A DNA stretch of 37,127 nt from Armatimonadota bacterium (GTDB lineage Bacteria; Armatimonadota; Zipacnadia; Zipacnadales; UBA11051). Below the pieces are notes generated by a model. It was not told where the DNA came from and did not search any database. It saw only the letters and a list, made by a program, of their open reading frames with translations. Where the stretch lies: contig JABLXH010000045.1 of NCBI GenBank assembly GCA_013178155.1, positions 1 through 37,127 on the forward strand, given 5' to 3'. This document shows positions 4,766-27,117 of the stretch, piece by piece; position 1 is the stretch's first letter; each line of letters starts with the position of its first letter. The position numbers were made by a program, and so were the translations under genes.

Positions 4766-5491
4766 ATGTACCTTGAAGCACCCAGAATCGCGCCTGTGCT
4801 ATGCACCGCAGCGATGGTCGCCGGCTTTGCTGGCGTCGTCACTGTATCTCAGGCCAATACCAATCAGGCAAGCGACACGTCGCGGCTATCGCCGGGCGCG
4901 GCCGGCCAGGCCACGACCCTACGGTCCAGCGACGGACTGACTGCTGAGCAGCGCCTGCGCCGCGAGAAGTGTGGGCACATCTGGCGCACACTGTACCCGT
5001 GGAGCTACCACTCGGAGCTGGTGGACTTCTTCTGCGGCGAGCATGAGCGCGTGGGACTGGCCGAGATGTGGTGGGAGTCGCTGGTCTACGGTGCGTCGGG
5101 GAGCGAACTGCGACCGCGCATGGTCTGCCGTGGCGGCGGTATGGTCTCGCGAGGCCTGATGGACTGTGCCTGGACCTTCGCCAAGGACCATCGGCACCGT
5201 CTGGAGCCCCTCCTGGGTGGCGGCCGATCCTGGGGCCCGGACGCCCTCCTAGACCCCTGGGTCAGCATACGATGCCATGTCCTGGAGCTGGCCCACTACC
5301 GGCAGAAGTCCGGCCGCCAGGGCTGGAGCCTGCTGCGCCAGGTGTTCCTGCCCGTGAGTCCCGATGGCAGCCGAACGCTGCGGGAGCAGCGCCGCTGGCT
5401 GCGCATTGAGGCGACGCACCAACGCGCGGTGGGCGCCCTGCTGGCGCGACAGGCGAAGCGGCAGCCGACGCTGGTGAGCGCCAGGCCCTGA
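4766..5491 (+). CDS. Small exported protein, possible lytic-transglycosylase (SLT/lysozyme-fold) relative
   Basis: 241 aa. The N-terminus (residues 1-30) has a hydrophobic stretch (VLCTAAMVAGFAGVVTV) consistent with a signal peptide or anchor, followed by a Ser/Thr/Ala-rich linker. The conserved-looking core has a Glu in WWES (Glu104), then SRGLMD (residues 128-133) and LLDPWVSIRC (161-170). That order recalls the SLT transglycosylase fold: catalytic Glu in an ES pair, a GLMQ loop, then a DP..NI helix. If correct it would cleave or bind peptidoglycan in the envelope. The match is by eye and distant, so an unrelated fold is possible. The ATG has AAGGAG upstream with long spacing. It stands alone on the plus strand and ends at a strong hairpin. 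Confidence 0.45.
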   Translation: MYLEAPRIAPVLCTAAMVAGFAGVVTVSQANTNQASDTSRLSPGAAGQATTLRSSDGLTAEQRLRREKCGHIWRTLYPWSYHSELVDFFCGEHERVGLAEMWWESLVYGASGSELRPRMVCRGGGMVSRGLMDCAWTFAKDHRHRLEPLLGGGRSWGPDALLDPWVSIRCHVLELAHYRQKSGRQGWSLLRQVFLPVSPDGSRTLREQRRWLRIEATHQRAVGALLARQAKRQPTLVSARP

Positions 5492-13158: not shown

Positions 13159-15162
13159 CTAGCCGATGATCTCGTGGGAATTGCCTTCCTGCACTGCTTC
13201 CCGCGGCAGCGTTATCACGAAGGACGCGCCGCCTTCGGGCCGATTGGCGGCCAGAATGTCGCCCCGGTGCATCTTGACGATGCCCCGGGTCAGGGCCAGC
13301 CCCAGCCCCGTCCCCTGACCCATCGGCTTGGTGGTGAAGAAGGGGTCAAAGATCTGCGGGAGCACGGCCTCGTCAATGCCTGGTCCGGTGTCCGCAAACT
13401 CGATGCGCACCGAATCGGAGGTGGGTTGCGAGGCCATGACCGTCAGCGTCCCCTGGCCCGACATGGCCTCACACGCATTCTCGATCACGTTGCGGAACAC
13501 CTGAGTCAGTTGGTCGGCGTCGGCGGTGACGGGCGCCATACCGTCGGCGAACTCGCGCACGAAGGCGACTCCCTCCCATTGTCGCTCGGCAGTATCCAGC
13601 ACCGAGTGCAGCAGGGCAGACAGGTCGAACGTGGTCAGGTTGAGACGGTTTTCGCGCGCGAAGTCCAGCAGGGCCACCATGATGCTCTTGCAGCGATTGG
13701 CCTCCGCCACCACGGTCTCCAGATCGTCGCGCCGGGGGTCGTTGGGCGGAAGCTGCCGCAGCAGCAGGTGGCTGTAGAGCAGCACGGTCGCCAGCGGGTT
13801 GTTGACCTGGTGAGCAACGCCGGCCGCCAACTGTCCCACGGCCGCCAGTTTCTCAGCCTGTACGAGCCGTTCCTGAGTACTGGCCAGGGCAGCGTGCGAA
13901 CGCTGCAGCCGCTCCAGAGCCTGCTGCGTCTCATCAATCAGATATGGCAGGCACATCTCTACCTCGGCCAGTCCATGGCAGACCGCAATCGCCTTCTCGC
14001 GGCAGGTCTGATAGCCGCAAGCGCCGCAGTTCAGCTCATCTTCGGGCGAGTACTTGCGCATCCTCGCCAGCACCGCTCTGATCTCCTCCTCGGCGGGCGG
14101 GGGAGGGTCGACAGGCTGCGCGCGATAGGCACGAGTGAGGTCCAGGTCGTCATACTGGGCGAGGTAGGCCTCGACCTCCTCGGGCGTCATGTCCGTCTCA
14201 GCCTTGACGAAGGAGGTGACCAGGTCCTTGCGCGCAAACTCGCCTACCTCGGCAGCCATGACCGGACCGTTGATGCAACCCTCGCAGAGGAGAATATCCA
14301 CAAAGTGGGTGTGGAACTCCCCTGTCTTCATCTCGTCAATCAGCCGCTGGACCCGCAAGACGCCATCGGCGACCAGGATGTCGCTGTCGAGTACGTCTTG
14401 CTCCAGGGCGGCCGTCTTCAGCAGTCCGCCGGAGACGGGGAAAACCCGTCCCAAGGCCGCTCGCGGCGGATCAAAGGCACTGTCGGGCTCTTGCGACACG
14501 TCCAGCCCGGCGCTCGCCAACAGCTCACGCAGCTCTTCGTAGGTCATCACGGCATCAATGACCCCGGCGACCTCGGGGTCGCGCATCTCGCTCTTCTTGG
14601 CGGTGCAAGGTCCGATGAACACGATGCGGGCGTCGGGCCAGTGTCGTTGCTTCACCGCTCGCCCGAGCGCGATCATGGGCGAGACGATGGGCGCCAGGGC
14701 GGGCACGAGCGTGGGGGCGAACTTCTCGATGTAGTTGACGAGGGCCGGGCAGGGGCTGGCGAGCAGAAGTTCGCCCTGGTTCTGTTGCACGAGCTGACGG
14801 TAGCGCCGGGCCACAAGGTCCGCGCCAAACGCCACTTCGACGACGCGTGTGAAGCCCAGTCTGCGCAGGACGGAGACCACTTGGCCCGGTCGCCAGGGGT
14901 GAAACGCCGCGGGGAAGGAGGGGGCCAGGGCGGCGACCACCTCACCATCATCGGCCAGGAAGCCCCGCACAGTCTCAACACTGTCCTCGATCGCCTTGGC
15001 ACGCTGAGCGCAGACGCGATAGCAGTTGCCGCAGGAGATACAGCGCTCGTCAACGACGGTGGCCTGGCCCTCCACCACACGGATGGCGCGCGCGGGACAG
15101 TGTCGCACGCAGTGGTAGCAGCGCTTGCAGCGGTCGCCGATGGTCTGGACTACGCCGGGCAT
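13159..15162 (-). CDS. [FeFe]-hydrogenase-like iron-sulfur sensor histidine kinase
   Basis: 667 aa, no membrane segment. Order: two [4Fe-4S] ferredoxin motifs (Cys12/15/18/22 and Cys41/44/47/51); an iron-only hydrogenase large-subunit C-terminal domain (about 70-320) with ASPCPA (Cys138), GPCTAKKSE (Cys186) and LLCEGCING (Cys293, Cys296); an extra FeS domain (Cys379, 382, 387, 404); a coiled linker; then an NtrB-like kinase with His451 in HQVNNP, DTGPG and GTGLGL boxes. The catalytic [FeFe] motif TSCCP is changed so that the proton-transfer Cys position is Pro, and the last motif is CxxC not CxxxC. It is therefore probably a sensor of H2 or redox state rather than an H2-turning enzyme. GAGGA precedes the ATG; it overlaps the upstream kinase gene by 13 bases. 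Confidence 0.88.
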   Translation of the reverse strand: MPGVVQTIGDRCKRCYHCVRHCPARAIRVVEGQATVVDERCISCGNCYRVCAQRAKAIEDSVETVRGFLADDGEVVAALAPSFPAAFHPWRPGQVVSVLRRLGFTRVVEVAFGADLVARRYRQLVQQNQGELLLASPCPALVNYIEKFAPTLVPALAPIVSPMIALGRAVKQRHWPDARIVFIGPCTAKKSEMRDPEVAGVIDAVMTYEELRELLASAGLDVSQEPDSAFDPPRAALGRVFPVSGGLLKTAALEQDVLDSDILVADGVLRVQRLIDEMKTGEFHTHFVDILLCEGCINGPVMAAEVGEFARKDLVTSFVKAETDMTPEEVEAYLAQYDDLDLTRAYRAQPVDPPPPAEEEIRAVLARMRKYSPEDELNCGACGYQTCREKAIAVCHGLAEVEMCLPYLIDETQQALERLQRSHAALASTQERLVQAEKLAAVGQLAAGVAHQVNNPLATVLLYSHLLLRQLPPNDPRRDDLETVVAEANRCKSIMVALLDFARENRLNLTTFDLSALLHSVLDTAERQWEGVAFVREFADGMAPVTADADQLTQVFRNVIENACEAMSGQGTLTVMASQPTSDSVRIEFADTGPGIDEAVLPQIFDPFFTTKPMGQGTGLGLALTRGIVKMHRGDILAANRPEGGASFVITLPREAVQEGNSHEIIG

Positions 15163-17068: not shown

Positions 17069-17551
17069 TCAATGGTCTGGCTCCGCCGTCTCAGCAAGCA
17101 ATCGGCGCACCGCCGCCAGGGCTTCCGGCACGGCCTGGGTCACGGTCGCAGTCAGCTCGAAGCCCGGCGCTACCTCCTCGGGCTGTATCCCGACGATATG
17201 CACCTGCGGTTGTACCCCGATCAACTGGCCCAGCTCCAACACCTGTTCCAGCCCCACCTGGTGCAAAGAGGCGATCATCGCCGGGGGAACCACTTCTACT
17301 TCTTGTGGCGTGAAGACCCGAACGGTTCCCGGGGCCGCGCCCATGTCCACCGCATCCACCACAATCACCCGTTGGGCGCCCTCCATCTCAAAGAGCAGGT
17401 TGATGCCGCCCAGCGCTCCCTCTACCACCTGAACGCCAGGGGCTGTCCCCTCCTCAGCGAGCAGACGCGCCACTACCACCCCCACCCCCTCGTCACGATA
17501 CAGCTCGTTGCCAACCCCCAGTACCACCGTATGGGGCGGCTGCTCACTCAC
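17069..17551 (-). CDS. Hydrogenase maturation endopeptidase
   Basis: 160 aa, HycI/HybD/HoxW-type peptidase that trims the C-terminus of the [NiFe] large subunit after nickel is inserted. LGVGNELYRDEGVG (residues 11-24) is the family start motif. The three nickel-sensing ligands are visible as Glu16, Asp66 (in VVDAVD) and His97 (in SLHQVG), close to Glu16/Asp62/His93 of E. coli HybD. The GTG start at 17551 overlaps the large-subunit stop (GTGTGAG), with GGTGGAG upstream inside the large-subunit gene, giving translational coupling. Its likely substrate is the adjacent HydA. Confidence 0.92.
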   Translation of the reverse strand: MSEQPPHTVVLGVGNELYRDEGVGVVVARLLAEEGTAPGVQVVEGALGGINLLFEMEGAQRVIVVDAVDMGAAPGTVRVFTPQEVEVVPPAMIASLHQVGLEQVLELGQLIGVQPQVHIVGIQPEEVAPGFELTATVTQAVPEALAAVRRLLAETAEPDH

Positions 17552-18837
17552 ACGAACTCCACCTTCAAGAGATGCGTCGCGCACGAGATGCAGGGGTCAT
17601 AGGCGCGCACGAGCATCTCCAGGTGCAAGGCGATCTCCTCCTCGGTCTTGTCCATGATCTGTGGTACCAGCGCGTGCATGTCGTGCTCGATATTGTTGAG
17701 GTTCTGCCCGGTCGGGATGATCAGGTTGCAGTCCACGATCGTGCCCTCGTCGTCCACGGCGTACTCGTGGAACAACGTACCCCGGGGCACATCGGACGCA
17801 CCCACGCCACGACCTGCTTTCACCTCCACAGTCATGTCCTCGTCATGCAGGCCCATGTCTACCAGCCGGTCAATGAACTCGACACCGTCCAAGGTGCACT
17901 CCACACATTCCACGACCTGGGCGATGGTGTTCATGTACGGGTTGTAACAGACCGGTTGCAGCCCCAAGGCCTCAGCGACCTCCTTGGACTCTGGCCGCAG
18001 TTGATCGTAGTTGATGTTGAACCGCGCCAGCGCACCCACCATGTACGGACCCGTGGCGGAGCTGACGTGCTTGGCGTGAGAATGCGGCACCACCTTCTCT
18101 CGCACCTGCTGCTTGTAGTCCGGGATGGGCGTATCGCCGTTGACCGTGGAGCGGATGACGGCGCCGCGATACAGCGCATATTCATCCGGGTGGTGCAGGG
18201 CCACGAACTCCATCTCGCGCTCGAAGGCGGGTAGCTGCAGGGTCTTCAGGAGATCCACCGTGCTGTGTAGGTCCGGAACCGAGTCCAGCAGGCGCTGCTT
18301 GAGCGCCAGCAGGTCCTCGGCCTTCGGGACTTTGGGGAAGGCCTTGACTTTCATGGCGCACGGGTGGATGTGTCGGCCTGCCACCGTGCAGCAGATGTCA
18401 TTGGCCAGGCGCTTGAGCCGCAGCGCCATCTTCACCACGTCCGGGTGAGTCTTTACCAGCGGCAGCACACTGGGCACGCCCAGCAGGTCGGGAGCGACCA
18501 GGTAGAACGCGTGCAGGTAGTGGCTCTGGAGTGTCTCGCCGGCGAAGGCAAGCTTGCGCAGCAGTAGTGTCTGCTCAGAGATCTCAACGCCCAGCGCGTT
18601 CTCCATCGCCTGCAGGGAGGCGGAGGTGTGGCCGATGGAGCAGATGCCACAGATGCGGCAAGTGATGTGGGCTGCCTCGTACCATTTCCGCCCCAGCAGG
18701 AACGCTTCGTAGAACCGGGGGGACTCGGAGATCTCCAGCTTCAGCTCCTTGATCTCACCCGCCTGCACGTCCAGCACGATATTGCCATGCCCCTCGACGC
18801 GGGTGATATCATGAACGTTGATCTTCACATCCTTCAT
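17548..18837 (-). CDS. hydA: [NiFe] hydrogenase large (alpha) subunit, group 3b-type
   Basis: 429 aa, catalytic subunit holding the NiFe(CN)2CO site. The N-terminal ligand motif is RICGIC (Cys63, Cys66) and the C-terminal one DPCISCATH (Cys416, Cys419). After His422 a 7-residue tail LLKVEFV remains, the expected peptide removed by the maturation protease encoded next. Gene order hydB-hydG-hydD-hydA and subunit make-up match cytosolic group 3b NADP-linked hydrogenases (Pyrococcus sulfhydrogenase I type), which evolve or oxidise H2 with NAD(P)(H). The ATG at 18837 has GAGGA 6 bases upstream; an upstream in-frame start 21 bases earlier is less likely. No membrane anchor. Confidence 0.93.
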   Translation of the reverse strand: MKDVKINVHDITRVEGHGNIVLDVQAGEIKELKLEISESPRFYEAFLLGRKWYEAAHITCRICGICSIGHTSASLQAMENALGVEISEQTLLLRKLAFAGETLQSHYLHAFYLVAPDLLGVPSVLPLVKTHPDVVKMALRLKRLANDICCTVAGRHIHPCAMKVKAFPKVPKAEDLLALKQRLLDSVPDLHSTVDLLKTLQLPAFEREMEFVALHHPDEYALYRGAVIRSTVNGDTPIPDYKQQVREKVVPHSHAKHVSSATGPYMVGALARFNINYDQLRPESKEVAEALGLQPVCYNPYMNTIAQVVECVECTLDGVEFIDRLVDMGLHDEDMTVEVKAGRGVGASDVPRGTLFHEYAVDDEGTIVDCNLIIPTGQNLNNIEHDMHALVPQIMDKTEEEIALHLEMLVRAYDPCISCATHLLKVEFV

Positions 18838-18872: not shown

Positions 18873-19613
18873 CTAGGCCAGGTGATCCTCGGTGTAGCTG
18901 TTGAACATGTCGAAGTGCTGTAGCACCTCAGTCACGGTGAGTCCGTGCTCGGCCAGAGTCTCTTTGTGCGCGTTTTCGTTGGGGTTGCTCACCAGGCCCC
19001 GACAGCCCTCGCAGCCATCGCCGAAGGTGGGGCAGATGGCGCCACAGCCGGCCCTGACTACCGGACCCATGCAGGTCATGCCCCGGAAGAAGACGCAGAC
19101 GTTTTCCTTCTTTTTGCACTCCACACAAAGCGGGTAGTCAGGCAGCTTGGGCGTCTTGCCCAGCGCCACGTCGCGGACCACGCGCAGAAACTCGGTGCGG
19201 TCGATGGGACAGCCGTGTAACTCGAGGTCCACGGGCACCACGGCACGCAGCGGTCGGGCGGGGATGGTGTCGAACTGCTCCCCCGCCTTGCCGTAGACCA
19301 TCTGCTTGACCTCGTGCATGCCGTAGCGGTTCTTGAGCGCGTTCAGGCCCCCCGTCGTGGCGCAGGCGCCGATGGCGACCAGCACCTTGGCCTTCTCACG
19401 GATCTCCTTGATCTTCTTCTCATCGGCATGGGTCGAGATGCTGCCCTCCACCAGGGCGATATCGTACTCCTCCGCCTTCTCGCTGAGGCCTTCGCGCCAC
19501 TCTACCAGGTCAATGAGGTTGAGCACGTCCAGCAGTTCGTTCTCGCACTCGATGACCGCCAGACCACAGCCCTCGCAACAGGTGAAGGCAAACATGGCGA
19601 CTCGCGGCTTCAT
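18873..19613 (-). CDS. hydD: [NiFe] hydrogenase small (delta) subunit
   Basis: 246 aa iron-sulfur subunit that carries electrons from the NiFe site. Proximal cluster ligands are seen as CCEGC (Cys13, Cys16), GAC (Cys84) and HGCP (Cys135). The C-terminal half has eight more cysteines in CVEC..C (163, 166, 173) and C..GC..C..C..C (181, 190, 194, 201, 204), enough for two further [4Fe-4S] clusters. There is no Tat signal, as expected for a cytosolic group 3 enzyme. GGGAGG lies 7 bases before the ATG, which directly follows the hydG stop. Confidence 0.93.
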   Translation of the reverse strand: MKPRVAMFAFTCCEGCGLAVIECENELLDVLNLIDLVEWREGLSEKAEEYDIALVEGSISTHADEKKIKEIREKAKVLVAIGACATTGGLNALKNRYGMHEVKQMVYGKAGEQFDTIPARPLRAVVPVDLELHGCPIDRTEFLRVVRDVALGKTPKLPDYPLCVECKKKENVCVFFRGMTCMGPVVRAGCGAICPTFGDGCEGCRGLVSNPNENAHKETLAEHGLTVTEVLQHFDMFNSYTEDHLA

Positions 19614-20459
19614 TCAGATCGCCTCCCACAGTTGCTTGAGCTCATGGTAGTTAAACACCGGTCCGTCCTGACAGACGTACTTGCCATTAATCTGACAGTG
19701 GCCGCACTTACCCACACCGCACTTCATGTGGCGCTCAAGCGACAGGATGATATGCTCGTCGGCGATGCCCTTGTTGCGACACTCAAGGATCACGAACTGG
19801 TACATGATCGGTGGGCCTACGATGACGGCCCGGGTTCGCGGGGCGTCCAGCTCCAGACTGGGGAAGAGGGTGGTCACTACCCCCACATGCCCCGACCAGT
19901 CCGGGTGGGGGCGGTCTATGGTGAGCTGCAAGTCCACCGCGTTGCTGCTCTCCCACTCGGCGATCTCGTCGCGAAACAGCATCTCTTCGGGGCGCTTCAT
20001 GCCGTAGAGAATAGTGAAGTTGCCGTAGTCGGGGCGGTTGCATAGGATGTGGTGGATAAGCGGCCGCACCGGCACGAGGCCGATACCACCGGCCACCACC
20101 AGCACGTCGTTGCCCTTAAGCTGGTCATCCGGGAAGCCACGGCCGAAGGGGCCGCGGATGCCCACGTAGGCGCCCTCGGCCAGGTTGTGCAGCGCCCGGG
20201 TCACGTTGCCGACCTTGCGGACACACAGTTCGAAGTGGGGTTCTTCACAGGGCGCTGAGGCGATGGAGATCGGGGCCTCGCCGATGCCTGGCAGGCACAC
20301 CTGGACGAACTGTCCTGGCTGATGGCCTAGCGGCGCACCGTCCTCGAAACGGAGTTGAAAGAGGGTCTCCAGCTCTGTCTGGGGGACGACCTTGTCCAGC
20401 ACCGCCAGCTTTGGAACGTAGAGTTCGCGGTCGGCCTCGCATTGGCAGGCTTGAGCCAT
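19614..20459 (-). CDS. hydG: Hydrogenase gamma subunit, FAD/NAD(P)-binding with [2Fe-2S]
   Basis: 281 aa flavoprotein that passes electrons between the hydrogenase and NAD(P). An FAD-binding barrel (about 12-110) contains APISIASAP; the NAD-binding fold begins with VVAGGIGLVPVR (121-132) and includes VGPPIMYQF. A dihydroorotate-dehydrogenase-type [2Fe-2S] site ends the protein (Cys247, 252, 255, 263). It is homologous to AsrB of anaerobic sulfite reductase, hence 'sulfhydrogenase' for this family. The ATG at 20459 has AAGGAGG 9 bases upstream and starts 4 bases after the hydB stop. This symbol means sulfhydrogenase gamma, not the radical SAM HydG of [FeFe] maturation. Confidence 0.92.
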   Translation of the reverse strand: MAQACQCEADRELYVPKLAVLDKVVPQTELETLFQLRFEDGAPLGHQPGQFVQVCLPGIGEAPISIASAPCEEPHFELCVRKVGNVTRALHNLAEGAYVGIRGPFGRGFPDDQLKGNDVLVVAGGIGLVPVRPLIHHILCNRPDYGNFTILYGMKRPEEMLFRDEIAEWESSNAVDLQLTIDRPHPDWSGHVGVVTTLFPSLELDAPRTRAVIVGPPIMYQFVILECRNKGIADEHIILSLERHMKCGVGKCGHCQINGKYVCQDGPVFNYHELKQLWEAI

Positions 20460-20463
20460 GGGG

Positions 20464-21498
20464 TCAGGCCTCCTTTCCGCTGTGAGCCAGCAGTCTGTTG
20501 ATCGTGTCGACGGGGTCAATGTGCACCAGGCACTGCCTGACACACCGACCGCAGCCGCAGCAGTACGGCTCACCGTACTTGGTAAACAGGTAGGAGTACT
20601 TGCGGAAGAAGCGGTGCTTGAGGCGATCCTCGCGCTCTTCCCGGAAGTTCTCGCCCGAACCCACCTGGGCGAACTCCTCCAGCATGCATCCGTCCCACTC
20701 CCGCTCCCGGTTTCCCGAGTGAAGCGACAGGTCCATCTCGTCCAGGACATCGAAGCAGAAACAGGTGGGACAGGTGAGGTTGCAGGTGCCGCAGCTATAG
20801 CACTTCTCCGCCACTTCTGCCCAGACAGGGCTCTTTTCGAAGCCGCTGAAGTGCAGGGGCAGAGAGTTCACGTCGCAGTTGATCTTCCGCTCCTGCCGCA
20901 ACTTGGTCTCAAGGCGCTTCTTGACGGCCGCAATCTCCTCCGCCGATGCCTCACGGGCGGGGATCCCCTCCATCATCGCCTCGCCCGCCGGAGTCGCCAC
21001 CTCGACTACGTAGTCACCATTCAGGGGGGTAAGGAACAAGTCATAGCCGGTGCTGACGGAGGCGGTACCCATGCTACCGCAGAAGCAGTACTCGTCTGGC
21101 TCGCAGTCCACACCGACGATGCGGATCTGCGCCCGGCGAGCCACCCAGTTGGGGTCGACCTTCTGGTCACAGAGGGCTTTGTCCAGGGCATTCAGACCGT
21201 AGATGTCACAGGGGTGGGCACCGAAGATGACCAGCGGCTCGGCCTCGATCACCGCCTCCATCTTGGGCCGGTCAGCCAGCTCATAGTGAAGCAGCTTCTC
21301 CTTGGGCGGGAAAGCATACTTCTTGGGGGGCAGGATCGTGCTGGTGTAGTCGAGGCAGACGTCACAGGGGTCCTTTACATCCTCAAAGACCCACTGTTTG
21401 TTTCCCTCGCGCTGGTGCGGCGCCACGACCCTCCCCTCTGCCATCAGTTTCTCCAGTAGTTGCGTCACAGCTTCACAACCGATGACCTGTAACGCCAT
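20464..21498 (-). CDS. hydB: Hydrogenase beta subunit, 4Fe-4S dicluster protein (AsrA-like)
   Basis: 344 aa electron-transfer subunit. The N-terminal region resembles AsrA/HydB (LPPKKYAFPPKEKLL near 57-70, GAHPCDIYG near 93-101, and a Cys-rich VDCEPDEYCFCG). Two [4Fe-4S] ferredoxin motifs follow: CYSCGTCNLTC (Cys233-243) and CCGCGRCVRQC (Cys313-323). It couples the flavin subunit to outside electron carriers. The ATG at 21498 has AAGGAGG 7 bases upstream. It is the first gene of the structural part, separated from hypE by about 240 bases. Confidence 0.92.
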   Translation of the reverse strand: MALQVIGCEAVTQLLEKLMAEGRVVAPHQREGNKQWVFEDVKDPCDVCLDYTSTILPPKKYAFPPKEKLLHYELADRPKMEAVIEAEPLVIFGAHPCDIYGLNALDKALCDQKVDPNWVARRAQIRIVGVDCEPDEYCFCGSMGTASVSTGYDLFLTPLNGDYVVEVATPAGEAMMEGIPAREASAEEIAAVKKRLETKLRQERKINCDVNSLPLHFSGFEKSPVWAEVAEKCYSCGTCNLTCPTCFCFDVLDEMDLSLHSGNREREWDGCMLEEFAQVGSGENFREEREDRLKHRFFRKYSYLFTKYGEPYCCGCGRCVRQCLVHIDPVDTINRLLAHSGKEA

Positions 21499-21737: not shown

Positions 21738-22757
21738 TCAGCATATCCGGGGCAGCAGCTCGCCGCCGGGCATGTCCACGAGCCGGCGGGTGCCCAGGTC
21801 TGTCTCGAGCAGCACCCGGCCGGGTGAGTCGGTGATCACCTCCCCGATGACCGCACTACCGCGGCCCAAGGGATGAGCGCGCATGGCTTCCAGCACTGCT
21901 GTGGCCTGCCGCGGCGCCACGAAGGCGACGACCTTGCCCTCGTTGGCAATGGTCAGCGGGTCGAAGCCCAGCAGGTCACAGGCGCCGCGTACACCAGCCG
22001 TCACCGTGAGGTCTGCTTCTCTGATGATGACACCAACACGCGAATCAGCCGCGATCTCATTCAACGCTGCCGCAAGGCCCCCGCGGGTTGGGTCCCGCAG
22101 CACGTGCACGTCCGGGCCCCCGGCTGACAGCATGGTCTCCACGAGGCTCCACAGCGGCGCGCAGTCGCTCTCAACCGCCACGCTGAACCCCAGGTTCTCC
22201 CGGGCCGCGAGAACGGCGATGCCGTGGTCACCGATGGGACCGTTGATGAGTACCTGGTCGCCAGGCTGTGCGCGGAAGGCGGCAGGTGGCGGCGAAACCT
22301 GCACCTTACCGAGACCGCTCATACTCAGGAACATCCCGTCTCCGCGGCCTCTCTCCACCACCTTGGTATCCCCGGCGACCACCACTGCCCCGACCGCATC
22401 CAGAGTGGCCCGCATGGATGCAACCACCCTCTCCAGCGTCCCCAGCGGCAGGCCCTCCTCCAGAACCATGCTGACCGTCAGCACTTCGGGTCGCGCCCCA
22501 CGCATGGCCAGGTCATTGACCGTGCCGCAGACCGCCAGCTTGCCGATGTCACCGCCCGGAAAGAAGAGCGGCCTGACAGTGAAGCCATCGGTTGTAATGG
22601 CCCACGCGGGACTGCCGGCCGCCGCTGGAAGCAAAGCTGCGTCTTCCAGATGCAAGGCATGAGCCGGGTCCAGCAACGGCAGCAGGATGTCCCGCAGCAA
22701 CTGGCGCGTGCTGGCGCCACCGCCACCGTGAGCCAGCGTGACCACGGGCTCCGCCAT
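21738..22757 (-). CDS. hypE: Hydrogenase maturation protein HypE
   Basis: 339 aa, ATP-dependent dehydratase that turns a C-terminal Cys-carboxamide into Cys-thiocyanate, the source of the cyanide ligands of the NiFe site. The protein ends LLPRIC, with the modified Cys at the last position (Cys339), the hallmark of HypE. PurM/AIR-synthase-like features include TLAHGGGG (near the start), GDIGKLAVCGTVNDLAM and DPTRGGLA. The ATG at 22757 shares its A with the hypD stop (TGATG), with AGGTGA upstream, so the two are translationally coupled. Confidence 0.95.
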   Translation of the reverse strand: MAEPVVTLAHGGGGASTRQLLRDILLPLLDPAHALHLEDAALLPAAAGSPAWAITTDGFTVRPLFFPGGDIGKLAVCGTVNDLAMRGARPEVLTVSMVLEEGLPLGTLERVVASMRATLDAVGAVVVAGDTKVVERGRGDGMFLSMSGLGKVQVSPPPAAFRAQPGDQVLINGPIGDHGIAVLAARENLGFSVAVESDCAPLWSLVETMLSAGGPDVHVLRDPTRGGLAAALNEIAADSRVGVIIREADLTVTAGVRGACDLLGFDPLTIANEGKVVAFVAPRQATAVLEAMRAHPLGRGSAVIGEVITDSPGRVLLETDLGTRRLVDMPGGELLPRIC

Positions 22758-23887
22758 CAGGCGGTCACCTCGCGGACTTCCGGCGCGAGTTGGCCGTAAC
22801 GCCATTCAGCGGCACAGGAGCCCTCGCTGGAGACCATACAGGGCCCCACCGGGCTCTCAGGTCGGCAAGGATCGCCGAAGGAGGGGCAGTCCCGGGGGCT
22901 TATGGCACCGCGCAAGACGGCTCCGCAGCAGCATCCCGGCGGCTCGGGCAGCACGGCGACCTCGACCCCATGGCGTGCCACCGCATCAAAGCCGCGGTAC
23001 GCCTCTCGGAAAGCCAGCCCGCTGTCGGCAATCGTCCCGAGCCCACGCCAGGTGGTGTCCGCGGGTCTGAACACCTCGTACATGGTGCGCAAGGCCAGGG
23101 GATTGCCCTCCGGACGGACCGCCCGGGCATAGTCATTGTCCACGCGAGCCTCGCCGGCCCGCACCTGTCGCACGAGGCTCAGGATGCCCGCCATGATCTC
23201 GCCGGGCGCAAACCCTGCCACCGCGCACGGTATCCCGTACTGCTGCACCAGCGGCGCGTAGGCCTGGGCGCCGATGATGGTGCTGACATGCCCGGGGCAC
23301 AGGAGGCCATCAAGCGCCACCCCGGGCGACTGCAGCAGGGCTACCAGCGCCGGTGGCACGAGCTTGTGGGCGGCAAACACGCTCAGGTTGGGCACGCGCT
23401 GCCGGGCTGCCGACAGCACCGCCGCCGCCACGGCCGGGGCCGTGGTCTCAAACCCTACGCCCAGAAACACCACCTCGCGGTCCGGGTGGGCCTGGGCAAT
23501 CTCAACAGCCTGCAGTGGCGAGTAGACCACGCGCACGTCGGCCCCCTGGGCTTTGGCCAGCGAGAGCGTCGGTGGGGCCGAGCCGTTGTCGGTGTGACCG
23601 GGGACCCGCATCATGTCGCCGAAGGTGCACACGATCACCCCGCTGGTCGCCAACGCGATCATGGCGCTGATCTCGCCGGGTGTGGTCACACAGACCGGAC
23701 AGCCGGGGCCTGACAGCAGGCGCAGGTCGGCGGGTAGTAGCTGACGGAGGCCAAAACGGCCAATGGCCTGTGAGTGCGTTCCGCAGACCTCCATCAGCCG
23801 GATCGGACGGTCCACCAGTTCTGCCAGCATCTGGCGGAAACGGTGCGCGGCCAGCACTCTCTGCCCGTCGGTACTAGCCCTTGTCAA
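22757..23887 (-). CDS. hypD: Hydrogenase maturation protein HypD
   Basis: About 376 aa iron-sulfur scaffold on which Fe(CN)2CO is built together with HypC. MEVCGTHS, GPGCPVCVT (pair of Cys), GFETTAPA and the C-terminal cluster region CCCGAVLRG...GPCMVSSEGSCAA are all in place. The start is uncertain: TTG at 23887 gives the usual 26-residue lead before the RPIRLMEVC strand and has GGAGGAGG about 9 bases upstream, overlapping hypC by 14 bases. GTG 23857 and ATG 23830 give shorter proteins with weaker sites. It overlaps hypE by one base. Confidence 0.92.
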   Translation of the reverse strand: MTRASTDGQRVLAAHRFRQMLAELVDRPIRLMEVCGTHSQAIGRFGLRQLLPADLRLLSGPGCPVCVTTPGEISAMIALATSGVIVCTFGDMMRVPGHTDNGSAPPTLSLAKAQGADVRVVYSPLQAVEIAQAHPDREVVFLGVGFETTAPAVAAAVLSAARQRVPNLSVFAAHKLVPPALVALLQSPGVALDGLLCPGHVSTIIGAQAYAPLVQQYGIPCAVAGFAPGEIMAGILSLVRQVRAGEARVDNDYARAVRPEGNPLALRTMYEVFRPADTTWRGLGTIADSGLAFREAYRGFDAVARHGVEVAVLPEPPGCCCGAVLRGAISPRDCPSFGDPCRPESPVGPCMVSSEGSCAAEWRYGQLAPEVREVTA

Positions 23888-24098
23888 GACCGGCTGCCTC
23901 CTCCATGAGCGACAGGATTTCGAGGGCGTCGGTCTCCTCCAGGCGGTTGATGGCATAGCCGGCATGCACCAGGACGTAGTCGCCGACCGCTGCCTCCTCG
24001 ACCAGGTCCAGCCGCGCGCGAATGGTCGCCTCACCCACCTGGCAGAGGGCTTGCTGGTCAGTAATCTCAGTGATGAGGGCGGGCACGGCAAGACACAT
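23874..24098 (-). CDS. hypC: Hydrogenase maturation chaperone HypC
   Basis: 74 aa. It begins MCLAVPAL, giving the essential Cys2 once Met is removed, and has the OB-fold pattern with GDYVLVHAGYAI (residues about 42-53) and an acidic C-terminal helix. HypC carries Fe/CO2 to HypD and delivers the iron centre to the hydrogenase large subunit. It sits 20 bases after hypF and overlaps the preferred hypD start. The ribosome site (GAGAAGAA) is moderate. Confidence 0.93.
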   Translation of the reverse strand: MCLAVPALITEITDQQALCQVGEATIRARLDLVEEAAVGDYVLVHAGYAINRLEETDALEILSLMEEAAGLDKG

Positions 24099-24118: not shown

Positions 24119-26461
24119 TCAGATGCCGTCTAGTTGCGCCTCGGCGACGACCGCCTGCCCCAGCGCCAGGCCTCCGTCGTTCGGTGACACCCGCCTGTGG
24201 TGCAGCACCCGCAGCCCGCACTCATCAAGCAGGTCACACAGGCGCTCGAGCAGCAGGCGGTTCTGGAAGGTGCCCCCTGACAGGGCGACAGTCCGCAGGC
24301 CAGTCCGCTTGCAGGCCAGCACCGCGGCATCTCTCAGCATGCGGGCGAAGGTCTCTTGGAAGCGGCTAGCCACCACCGCCGCCGGGGTGCCGGCATTCAC
24401 TTCGTGCACCATGGCGCCCAGTGTCGGCAGGGGGTCCAGGACGAGTTCCTGGCCCTGCCAGCCGGCGGCATAGGGATAGGGGTCGGCGCCCGCGGAGGCA
24501 GCGGCCTCCAGCGCCATGGCGGGCTGTCCCTCGAAGGCGGCCCGGGGGCACAGCCCCAGGAGTGCGGCGACGGCGTCAAAGAGCCGTCCGGCCGAACTGG
24601 CCAGCGGGCTGTTGAGTCCGCGGCTGATCATCCGGCTCAGGACCGGCCAGCTATCGCCCGGAATGGGGTGCGTGACCGCGGGCGGCAGCGTCTCCAGGAA
24701 CTCATCGCCGTACGCTTCGCGGAGATATGATCCCAGTACGCGCCAGGGCTCGCGGATAGCGGCGTCGCCGCCGGGCAGAGGTACCGGTCGCAGATGTCCC
24801 ACCCGTCGGGCTTCGCCGCTGCTGGTCCACAGCACCTCGCAACCCCAGATGGTGCCGTCGTCGCCGTAGCCAGTGCCGTCACAGGCCAGGCCGACGACCG
24901 GATCGTAGTAGTCATTGTCCGCCATGCAGGCAACGATGTGGGCGTGGTGGTGCTGGACCTCAACCAGGGGGACTCCCAGCTCGTCAGCGCGTTCACGTGC
25001 CCACTGCGTTGAAAGGTAGCCGGGATGGCGGTCGCAGGCGAGCGCTTGCGGTGCCACCTGCAAGACGCACTGCAGGTGAGTGATGATGGCAGCGAAGTGC
25101 CGAAGCGTGGCTTCATTCTCCAGATCGCCGATGTGTTGTGACAGCACCGCATTCGTTCCGGAGGCGAGGCAGACCGTGTTCTTCAGGTGTCCACCGACCG
25201 CCAGCACGGGTCTCACCGGCCGCGCCAGGCGTATCGGCAGAGGCGCATAGCCCCGCGCCCGGCGCACAGGAATCGCGCCCCGCTGCGTCCAGCGCAGAAC
25301 CGAGTCATCGCAGCCGATCAGGATGTCACGATCGTGGTCGAGAAAGCCGTCGCAAATGCCAGCGAGGCGCAATCTCGCCTCGGCATTGTCCGTGCACAGC
25401 GGCTCCTCGCTGAGATTACCGGAGGTCATGACGAGAGCGGCAAACTCACCATCGGCGAACAGAAGGTGATGGAGAGGGGTATACGGCAGCATGACGCCGT
25501 AGTCTGGTGAACCCGGGGCAACGCTGGGCGCCAGAGCCTCGGGCAGCCGTTTGGGGGCGAGGACGATGGGGGCCGCCGGTGACTGCAGCAGTTCCTCTGC
25601 CTCGCCCTCGACAACGGCAAAGCGCCGCACCTCGCCCAAGGACCCGGCCATCACCGCCAGCGGCTTCTCCTCGCGTCGCTTGCGTTCGCGTAGCCGGCGT
25701 ACGGCTTCCTCATTGGTCGCGTCACACGCAAGGTGAAATCCGCCCAGCCCCTTGATGGCGACTATCTGCCCCGCGCGCAGGGCCTTCAGCGCCCCCGCCA
25801 GGGCCATGTCCGCAGTCAGCACCTGGCCCTCGCGGGACGTGAACCGCAGCATCGGGCCGCAGCGAGGGCAGGCTACCGGCTGGGCATGGTACCGCCGGTC
25901 CGTGATGTCATGGTACTCCCGGGCGCAGTCCGGACACATCGGGAAGGGCGCCATCGAGGTGTTGGGCCGATCGTAGGGGATGCGGCGGGTGATGGTGTAG
26001 CGTGGCCCGCAGTTCGTGCAGTTCGTGAATGGATACCGGTGCCTGCGATCGGCCGGGTCGGTGAGCTCACGCAGGCAGTCGGGACAAGTTGCGATGTCGG
26101 GGGAGATAGAGACGGGTGCCCCTGGTGCTTCGCGCGAGGGAAGGATCAGGAAGTCTGTGTCGCCAGCGGGAGAGAGGTCCTCCGCGGAGAGGGTCTCAAT
26201 GACGGCCAGAGGCGGCTTATCGGTGAGTAGTGCGGCACCGAAGGCGGCAACAGCGGACGGATGGCCCTCGACCTCGATCTCAACACCGCCCGTGAAGTTC
26301 AGGACCGTGCCGGTCAGGCGCAACTCACCGGCCAAGCGGTGCACGAACGGCCGGAAGCCCACCCCCTGGACGATACCCTCCACGACAAAGCGACGGCGCA
26401 CCACATCGCCGGTGGCGCTTGTCGTTCTCACCCCACAGGTTGCGGTCGGTTCGGTCGCCAT
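24119..26461 (-). CDS. hypF: Carbamoyltransferase HypF
   Basis: 780 aa, which makes the carbamoyl-thioester of HypE from carbamoyl phosphate and ATP. Domains in order: acylphosphatase (VEGIVQGVGFRPFVHRLA near residues 28-45); two zinc-finger pairs (CPDCLREL/CTNCGPRY and CPDCAREY/CPRCGP); a YrdC/Sua5-like domain (AIKGLGGFHLACDA); and the Kae1-like carbamoyltransferase with HHHAHIVACMAD, CDGTGYGDDGTIWG and SGGTFQNRLLLERL. The length is normal for the family. The ATG at 26461 has only a weak GGA site; a longer start at 26503 is possible. It follows hypA after an unusually structured 163-base spacer. Confidence 0.95.
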   Translation of the reverse strand: MATEPTATCGVRTTSATGDVVRRRFVVEGIVQGVGFRPFVHRLAGELRLTGTVLNFTGGVEIEVEGHPSAVAAFGAALLTDKPPLAVIETLSAEDLSPAGDTDFLILPSREAPGAPVSISPDIATCPDCLRELTDPADRRHRYPFTNCTNCGPRYTITRRIPYDRPNTSMAPFPMCPDCAREYHDITDRRYHAQPVACPRCGPMLRFTSREGQVLTADMALAGALKALRAGQIVAIKGLGGFHLACDATNEEAVRRLRERKRREEKPLAVMAGSLGEVRRFAVVEGEAEELLQSPAAPIVLAPKRLPEALAPSVAPGSPDYGVMLPYTPLHHLLFADGEFAALVMTSGNLSEEPLCTDNAEARLRLAGICDGFLDHDRDILIGCDDSVLRWTQRGAIPVRRARGYAPLPIRLARPVRPVLAVGGHLKNTVCLASGTNAVLSQHIGDLENEATLRHFAAIITHLQCVLQVAPQALACDRHPGYLSTQWARERADELGVPLVEVQHHHAHIVACMADNDYYDPVVGLACDGTGYGDDGTIWGCEVLWTSSGEARRVGHLRPVPLPGGDAAIREPWRVLGSYLREAYGDEFLETLPPAVTHPIPGDSWPVLSRMISRGLNSPLASSAGRLFDAVAALLGLCPRAAFEGQPAMALEAAASAGADPYPYAAGWQGQELVLDPLPTLGAMVHEVNAGTPAAVVASRFQETFARMLRDAAVLACKRTGLRTVALSGGTFQNRLLLERLCDLLDECGLRVLHHRRVSPNDGGLALGQAVVAEAQLDGI

Positions 26462-26624
26462 TGCGGTGATCCAATCACTCGCGGCTCTGAACCTGTGCTG
26501 CAACCACCCTCCGGGAGTCTCCCCCCCGGGTCGTCTCAGTGGTGCCCTCCGGGCCCCCTTAGGGGCGCTTCCTGAGGCGCGGAGCCTGGCCCTCCGCCAG
26601 GCTGGTGACCTCCGTCACAGGCAT
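26462..26624 (-). other. Structured spacer between hypA and hypF with three hairpins
   Basis: In transcript order this 163-base gap can form GTGAC-ggag-GTCAC (26605-26618), GCCTGGC-ggagg-GCCAGGC (26584-26602) and GCCCC-taag-GGGGC (26553-26566). These stems sit inside an otherwise tightly packed transcription unit. They may be a processing, stability or attenuation element; no T tract follows, so a full terminator is not obvious. Confidence 0.4.
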
Positions 26625-26963
26625 TCAGGCGTACTCAACAGCCCGAATCAGCATCGTCTCTCCGGCGCAGAGGCGGACCTCACCGCTCCCACACGCGGGG
26701 CACTGCAAGTCTTCCGACACGGCCTGGATCTGTCCGCACTCCCGGCACTCGCCGAGCAACGCGGCGGTCTCCAGTGTCAGGCGGATGGGTGGCAGCGCGT
26801 GATGCTCGCACACATGGTCCAGGGCGTCTTGCAAGGCCTCTTGCGTGAGGGCTGCAAGTTCCGAGACCACAACCGTAACCGCGACCGGGCGCGCATCGGC
26901 AGGGCGATGAGGTTGGTGCAGGATGGCATCCAGCACCTGGTCGGCAACGCCATGTTCATGCAT
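26625..26963 (-). CDS. hypA: Hydrogenase nickel-incorporation protein HypA
   Basis: 112 aa nickel metallochaperone. It starts MHEHGVA, with the nickel-binding His2 in the MHE motif, and has a zinc site made of two CxxC pairs, CRECG and CPACG, in the C-terminal third. It delivers nickel to the large subunit, usually with the GTPase HypB, which is not found in this window. The ATG at 26963 has GAGGA about 10 bases upstream. It is the first gene after the promoter at 27089-27117 and leads the hydrogenase block. Confidence 0.92.
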   Translation of the reverse strand: MHEHGVADQVLDAILHQPHRPADARPVAVTVVVSELAALTQEALQDALDHVCEHHALPPIRLTLETAALLGECRECGQIQAVSEDLQCPACGSGEVRLCAGETMLIRAVEYA

Positions 26964-27059
26964 GGGGATGGAATCCTCGGCAGCTACGGGGGTGAAACCA
27001 GGCCGCGGACAGACCGCCTGAACCGGGCGAACCCACACAAAAAGCTGCGAATCTAATGC

Positions 27060-27077
27060 TTGTGAACAATATCACAA
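27060..27077. promoter_or_regulatory. Rex-type (or CRP/FNR-type) operator over the hyp-hyd transcription start
   Basis: TTGTGAACAATATCACAA is an 18-base palindrome with perfect six-base arms TTGTGA/TCACAA. It matches the Rex operator TTGTGAA-N4-TTCACAA at 13 of 14 defined positions and also fits the CRP pattern TGTGA-N6-TCACA. On the minus strand it covers about +5 to +22 of the predicted transcript, a repressor position. Rex is a repressor released by high NADH/NAD+, which would suit an NAD(P)H-linked hydrogenase. No rex or crp gene is in the window. Confidence 0.65.
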
Positions 27078-27088
27078 ACTTCGTGCTT

Positions 27089-27117
27089 AGTTTACAGTTT
27101 TCCCGCCAGCTTGTCAA
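27089..27117 (-). promoter_or_regulatory. Sigma70-type promoter of the hyp-hyd-signalling block
   Basis: Minus strand: TTGACA (27112-27117, perfect -35), a 17-base spacer, and TAAACT (27089-27094, -10). Transcription would start near 27082, leaving a leader of about 120 bases before the hypA ATG at 26963. It is the best promoter match found in the window and sits in a locally AT-rich stretch. The palindromic operator lies just downstream. Confidence 0.7.

Follow-up and report, generated by a model that had tools for sequence, protein, structure and literature searches.

A predicted Rex operator at the promoter of a hyp-linked [NiFe] hydrogenase operon in an Armatimonadota bacterium

Hydrogenase operon and promoter region

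The window analysed here is a stretch of 37,127 nucleotides corresponding to contig C152 of a draft Armatimonadota genome (G000; 5.53 Mb, 95.6% complete). On its minus strand lies a run of genes in the order hypA, hypF, hypC, hypD and hypE, followed by the genes for the hydrogenase beta, gamma, delta and alpha subunits. The first gene of the operon, hypA (26625..26963; Pfam HypA, E 3e-18), encodes a nickel metallochaperone with its most likely start at 26963 (MHEHG...). The remaining maturation genes were assigned by Pfam HypF domains, with the start set by reading frame (hypF, 24119..26461), by reading frame and the MCLAVP start motif (hypC, 23874..24098), by a Pfam HypD match of E 3e-138 on the open reading frame 22757-24091 (hypD, 22757..23874, start approximate) and by Pfam AIRS/AIRS_C domains (hypE, 21738..22757). 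The structural genes encode a group 3b-type beta (Fe-S) subunit (20464..21498; best NCBIfam matches HydB/ShyB), a gamma (FAD/NAD(P)) subunit (19614..20459; ShyC/HydG-type), a delta (small) subunit (18873..19613; HydD/ShyD) and an alpha (large, NiFe) subunit (17548..18837; Pfam NiFeSe_Hases and, as best NCBIfam matches, ShyA/HydA). All four sulfhydrogenase-type subunits are thus encoded within one operon; since their NCBIfam matches fall below the sulfhydrogenase equivalog cut-offs, the hydrogenase subgroup is assigned at family level only. Group 3b hydrogenases have been described for Zipacnadia, in a report in which Rex goes unmentioned (PMC10290634).

Within the ~160 bases that separate hypA from hypF (26462-26624), a strong hairpin rich in G+C, GCCTGGCCCTCCGCCAGGC, is accompanied by a palindrome with 2 mismatches at 26603; either RNA structure or chance could account for these features. 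Beside the operon, positions 13159-15162 of the window encode an [FeFe]-hydrogenase-like (Fe_hyd_lg_C) domain fused to a histidine kinase, a candidate H2 or redox sensor that is adjoined by further kinase/response-regulator genes.

Upstream of hypA, the minus strand reads TTGACA (-35; 27112..27117), a 17-base spacer and TAAACT (-10; 27089..27094), which together make up a near-consensus promoter. Transcription from this promoter is predicted to start at ~27082, giving a predicted leader of ~120 bases before the hypA start (26964..27082). At about +5 to +22 of this leader, on the same strand, lies the 18-mer TTGTGATATTGTTCACAA (27060..27077; TTGTGAACAATATCACAA in its plus-strand form), an exact TTGTGA-N6-TCACAA palindrome. 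It deviates at one position from the Rex consensus TTGTGAANNNNTTCACAA (PMC6391272), which several relatives match fully, and it also matches perfectly the CRP half-sites TGTGA-N6-TCACA. The original prediction for this locus had described a TTGACA-N17-TAAACT promoter directed toward hypA and, at about +5 to +22, a Rex-type palindrome with a single deviation from consensus, and on both points it agrees with the coordinates given here. In G001, the nearest relative with the operon, the -35 and -10 elements, their spacing and the gap to the operator are identical, so that the palindrome is again predicted at +5 to +22, a position compatible with repression. Because G001 retains both elements at the same distance amid an otherwise diverged leader, promoter and operator are both supported.

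Occurrence and conservation of the palindrome

A whole-genome scan for the 18-mer, which the original prediction had proposed as a check, revealed a single exact copy of TTGTGA-N6-TCACAA in the 5.5-Mb genome, namely the site at 27060-27077. Base composition predicts 0.0003 exact matches for the window and 0.048 for the whole genome. When the 300 bases preceding hypA were subjected to dinucleotide shuffling 200 times, no shuffle equalled the observed match. When up to 2 mismatches were allowed, 49 matches were obtained against 34 for a reversed control, and looser matches in this genome are therefore mostly noise. One-mismatch matches on C145, C154, C200 and C211 lie inside open frames and were taken as chance, and another on C173 lies in a frame beside atpB. 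Ten 2-mismatch matches inspected for signs of a larger regulon were all unconvincing, each overlapping an open reading frame.

Orthologous operons were retrieved by their large subunit, without use of the motif, and kept where identity was at least 55% and a hyp-linked operon start had been assembled. The palindrome was found with 0 or 1 mismatch, at most 170 bases from the first gene, in the window and in all eight such relatives (G001, G009, G013, G017, G024, G028, G043 and G044), and shuffles of the upstream regions failed to equal the observed match in any of the nine operons. In G024, large subunit and site are on one contig, the upstream part of which was read after the motif search. The same site precedes the operon in G014, G034 and G036, genomes that were found through the motif and are thus not independent. 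In G042 there is a 2-mismatch site only, before the beta gene, and the neighbouring operon genes of the G045 large subunit were not found beside it. Six more divergent operons, which share ~50% identity and begin with the beta gene, lack the site, so any Rex control is not universal among these hydrogenases. Selenocysteine was considered for divergent large subunits with a flagged TGA and discarded: in the two proteins whose C-terminal motif was found, Cys is encoded by TGC and TGA is an ordinary stop. The genomes G002-G006 and six of the seven g5 genomes are without both hydrogenase and Rex, suggesting joint loss in a comparison uncorrected for phylogeny and completeness.

Identity of the binding protein and mode of control

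The genome encodes one clear Rex protein (PF06971, E 1.9e-15), which scores 268 bits against an NCBIfam Rex equivalog cut-off of 226 and aligns over nearly its full length with Thermus Rex structures (E ~1e-54). Its DNA-binding and NAD-binding motifs are intact: the recognition segment QVRKDLSYFG is identical to that of Thermus Rex, and the protein carries a GxGxxG nucleotide motif and an FDxDP stretch. The gene is located on the minus strand of a separate contig (C2:171074; L001 1030-1701), next to nuoN, where it closes the complex I (nuo) cluster ahead of a polyprenyl synthase gene. No site with up to 2 mismatches occurs in the 34 kb around rex and the nuo genes, and with none before nuoA the cluster does not look autoregulated. 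A search of the same 95.6%-complete genome for cNMP-binding proteins (PF00027) found none; the sole HTH_Crp_2 match is sub-threshold, lies inside a GntR-type protein and was not accepted as a CRP.

Short motifs do arise randomly, as the 2-mismatch matches within open reading frames illustrate, yet we give next to no probability to a chance origin of the palindrome at 27060-27077, which is contradicted by its conservation in orthologous position before nine operons chosen without the motif and by its low expected frequency per genome. A CRP/FNR-family activator, responsive to cyclic AMP or oxygen, would suit the perfect TGTGA-N6-TCACA half-sites, and some relatives (G009, G013 and G044) encode cNMP-domain proteins. 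PF00027 is nevertheless absent not only here but also from the site-keeping genomes G001, G024, G028, G034, G036 and G043, and all seven combine the site with Rex and lack any detectable CRP/FNR-type protein. The site also lies downstream of the -10, in contrast to CRP class I/II activator sites. Across the genomes, hydrogenase presence is associated with Rex (Fisher p 0.0017) and less so with CRP (p 0.19), values that are uncorrected for phylogeny. The original prediction had favoured Rex, left CRP open and suggested a search for both genes; gene content and phylogeny now resolve the choice towards Rex, and we consider a CRP/FNR protein highly improbable as the binder. As motif identity alone cannot name a protein, the operator might be used by some other dimeric regulator that has gone unrecognised and shares these half-sites, and Rex was not detected in the 84%-complete assembly of G017 despite its two perfect sites. 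Such a regulator appears very unlikely to us, given that the Rex-type inner bases of several relatives (TTGTGAA...TTCACAA), the redox-type targets described below and the presence of Rex all agree. The 18-mer is thus almost certainly recognised by Rex.

We consider it very likely that the 18-mer serves as an operator through which Rex represses the hydrogenase operon at low NADH/NAD+, NADH relieving this repression. At a low ratio, a Rex dimer would bind the 18-mer and thereby cover the earliest transcribed bases, immediately downstream of the -10, so that initiation or promoter clearance would be blocked and the entire hypA-F-C-D-E and beta-gamma-delta-alpha operon silenced. Accumulating NADH would bind Rex and cause it to leave the DNA, and the released operon would then allow synthesis of an H2-evolving enzyme with which reductant could be disposed of as H2. 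For Rex binding, the response to NADH and the sign of control, this scheme draws on what is described for the Rex family (PMC6391272, PMC7306483).

The placement of the operator was compared among relatives, whose transcription starts were predicted by consensus scoring. The sole hypA operator of the window is centred at +13.5 from the predicted start, and the repressor-like position originally ascribed to it stands for this genome and for G001 but is not universal. In G013, G024 and G028, which belong to one genus, the operator lies 5 bases upstream of the -35 TTGACA (centre ~-50), a less obvious position for a repressor, and in G017 two perfect palindromes before hypA (L063 8570-8587 and 8636-8653, 66 bases apart) flank the promoter at -52.5 and +13.5. 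The operator overlaps the promoter in G043 and G044, and paired sites are present in G001 and G034. These upstream, flanking and paired arrangements would fit a Rex that binds but activates, or that acts mainly by another route, such as looping with a second operator, instead of a simple downstream block. For the operon studied here we judge this unlikely: its only site stands where an activator is not expected, and the literature portrays Rex as a repressor (PMC6391272, PMC7306483). A more speculative and rather doubtful extension is that Rex control of one hydrogenase operon has been rewired within one class, through a single downstream (roadblock-like) operator, a single operator upstream of the -35 or operators on both flanks, in which case repression might involve looping in some lineages and a different action, perhaps activation, in others. 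What may deserve a specialist's attention is this variation in the position and number of operators at the promoter of a single conserved operon.

Predicted regulon and relation to known Rex systems

A search of 61 Armatimonadota genomes gave 28 exact palindromes, compared with 2 for the reversed control; most of the 28 stand upstream of genes for hydrogenases or related redox functions. The targets comprise hypA or hypE of the [NiFe] operon, NADH-dependent [FeFe] hydrogenase (G001, G044 and G045), a ferredoxin-NuoE-NuoF cluster (G001, G009, G046 and G060), HdrC-like 4Fe-4S proteins (G041 and G044), a molybdopterin oxidoreductase (G053), phosphoglycerate dehydrogenase (G050) and a CofH/MqnC-type radical SAM enzyme (G057). 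The site thus accompanies promoters of genes for NADH and redox metabolism and is conserved among relatives.

The only other convincing intergenic site in the genome under study, ATGTGACTTTTTTCACAA, is found on contig C24, 24 bases upstream of the gene for an NADH-dependent [FeFe] hydrogenase A6 (792 bits against a cut-off of 765), and has exact counterparts in G001, G044 and G045. Rex very probably controls this hydrogenase as well, and the regulon of this genome is predicted to consist of two operons, both for hydrogenases. Repression of both enzymes by Rex at low NADH/NAD+ is, in our view, the best explanation of these sequence data. Here and in G001, the [FeFe] operator lies at ~+82 from the best promoter. 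In the C24 leader (L018 = G000:C24:56000-70710, ~4970-5101), a TTGACA-17-GATATT promoter precedes the Rex site by ~80 bases, and the interval holds a hairpin resembling a terminator together with a T-run. Promoter and hairpin both have comparable counterparts in G001, and the leader may act through a roadblock or through attenuation.

Taken as predictions, these results give the two hydrogenases of this uncultured Armatimonadota lineage a regulator, Rex, together with the signal it would answer to, NADH/NAD+. They extend Rex control of H2 metabolism to Armatimonadota through phylogenetic evidence that goes beyond a single motif match, and point to a switch conserved through a little-studied, uncultured bacterial class, with a regulon that is small and testable.

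The kind of switch is well known, and predictions that Rex governs hydrogenases of the group 3b and [FeFe] types already exist for Bacillota. The closest likeness is found in Calderihabitans maritimus, where a Rex-like TTGTGA-N6-TCACAA motif precedes the group 3b hydrogenase operon (hyd-3b) and Rex control was predicted (PMC7306483); this organism belongs to the Bacillota and its operon is arranged beta-gamma-small-large-protease, whereas the Armatimonadota operon begins with hypA-F-C-D-E. In the Rex regulon of Caldicellulosiruptor bescii and Thermoanaerobacterales (Ech, Hyd, hydG, hypABFCDE; PMC6391272, PMC5886521), NiFe and FeFe hydrogenases are placed under Rex together with hyp maturation genes, as is predicted here; Rex has hydrogenase targets, gel shifts tested its binding at sites upstream of hydrogenase genes in C. 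bescii (PMC6391272), and a Rex-like motif lies before the ech-hyp operon of Thermoanaerobacterium saccharolyticum (PMC5886521). The NiFe enzyme of that group is the membrane-bound Ech, in contrast to the soluble NAD(P)H-type enzyme described here, and rex of C. bescii is autoregulated, whereas no such site was seen before nuoA in our genome. In Caldithrix abyssi, a Rex-type site with two deviations likewise precedes a bifurcating [FeFe] hydrogenase cluster (PMC5317091), but rex is part of the hydrogenase cluster itself, whereas in the Armatimonadota genome it belongs to the complex I cluster.
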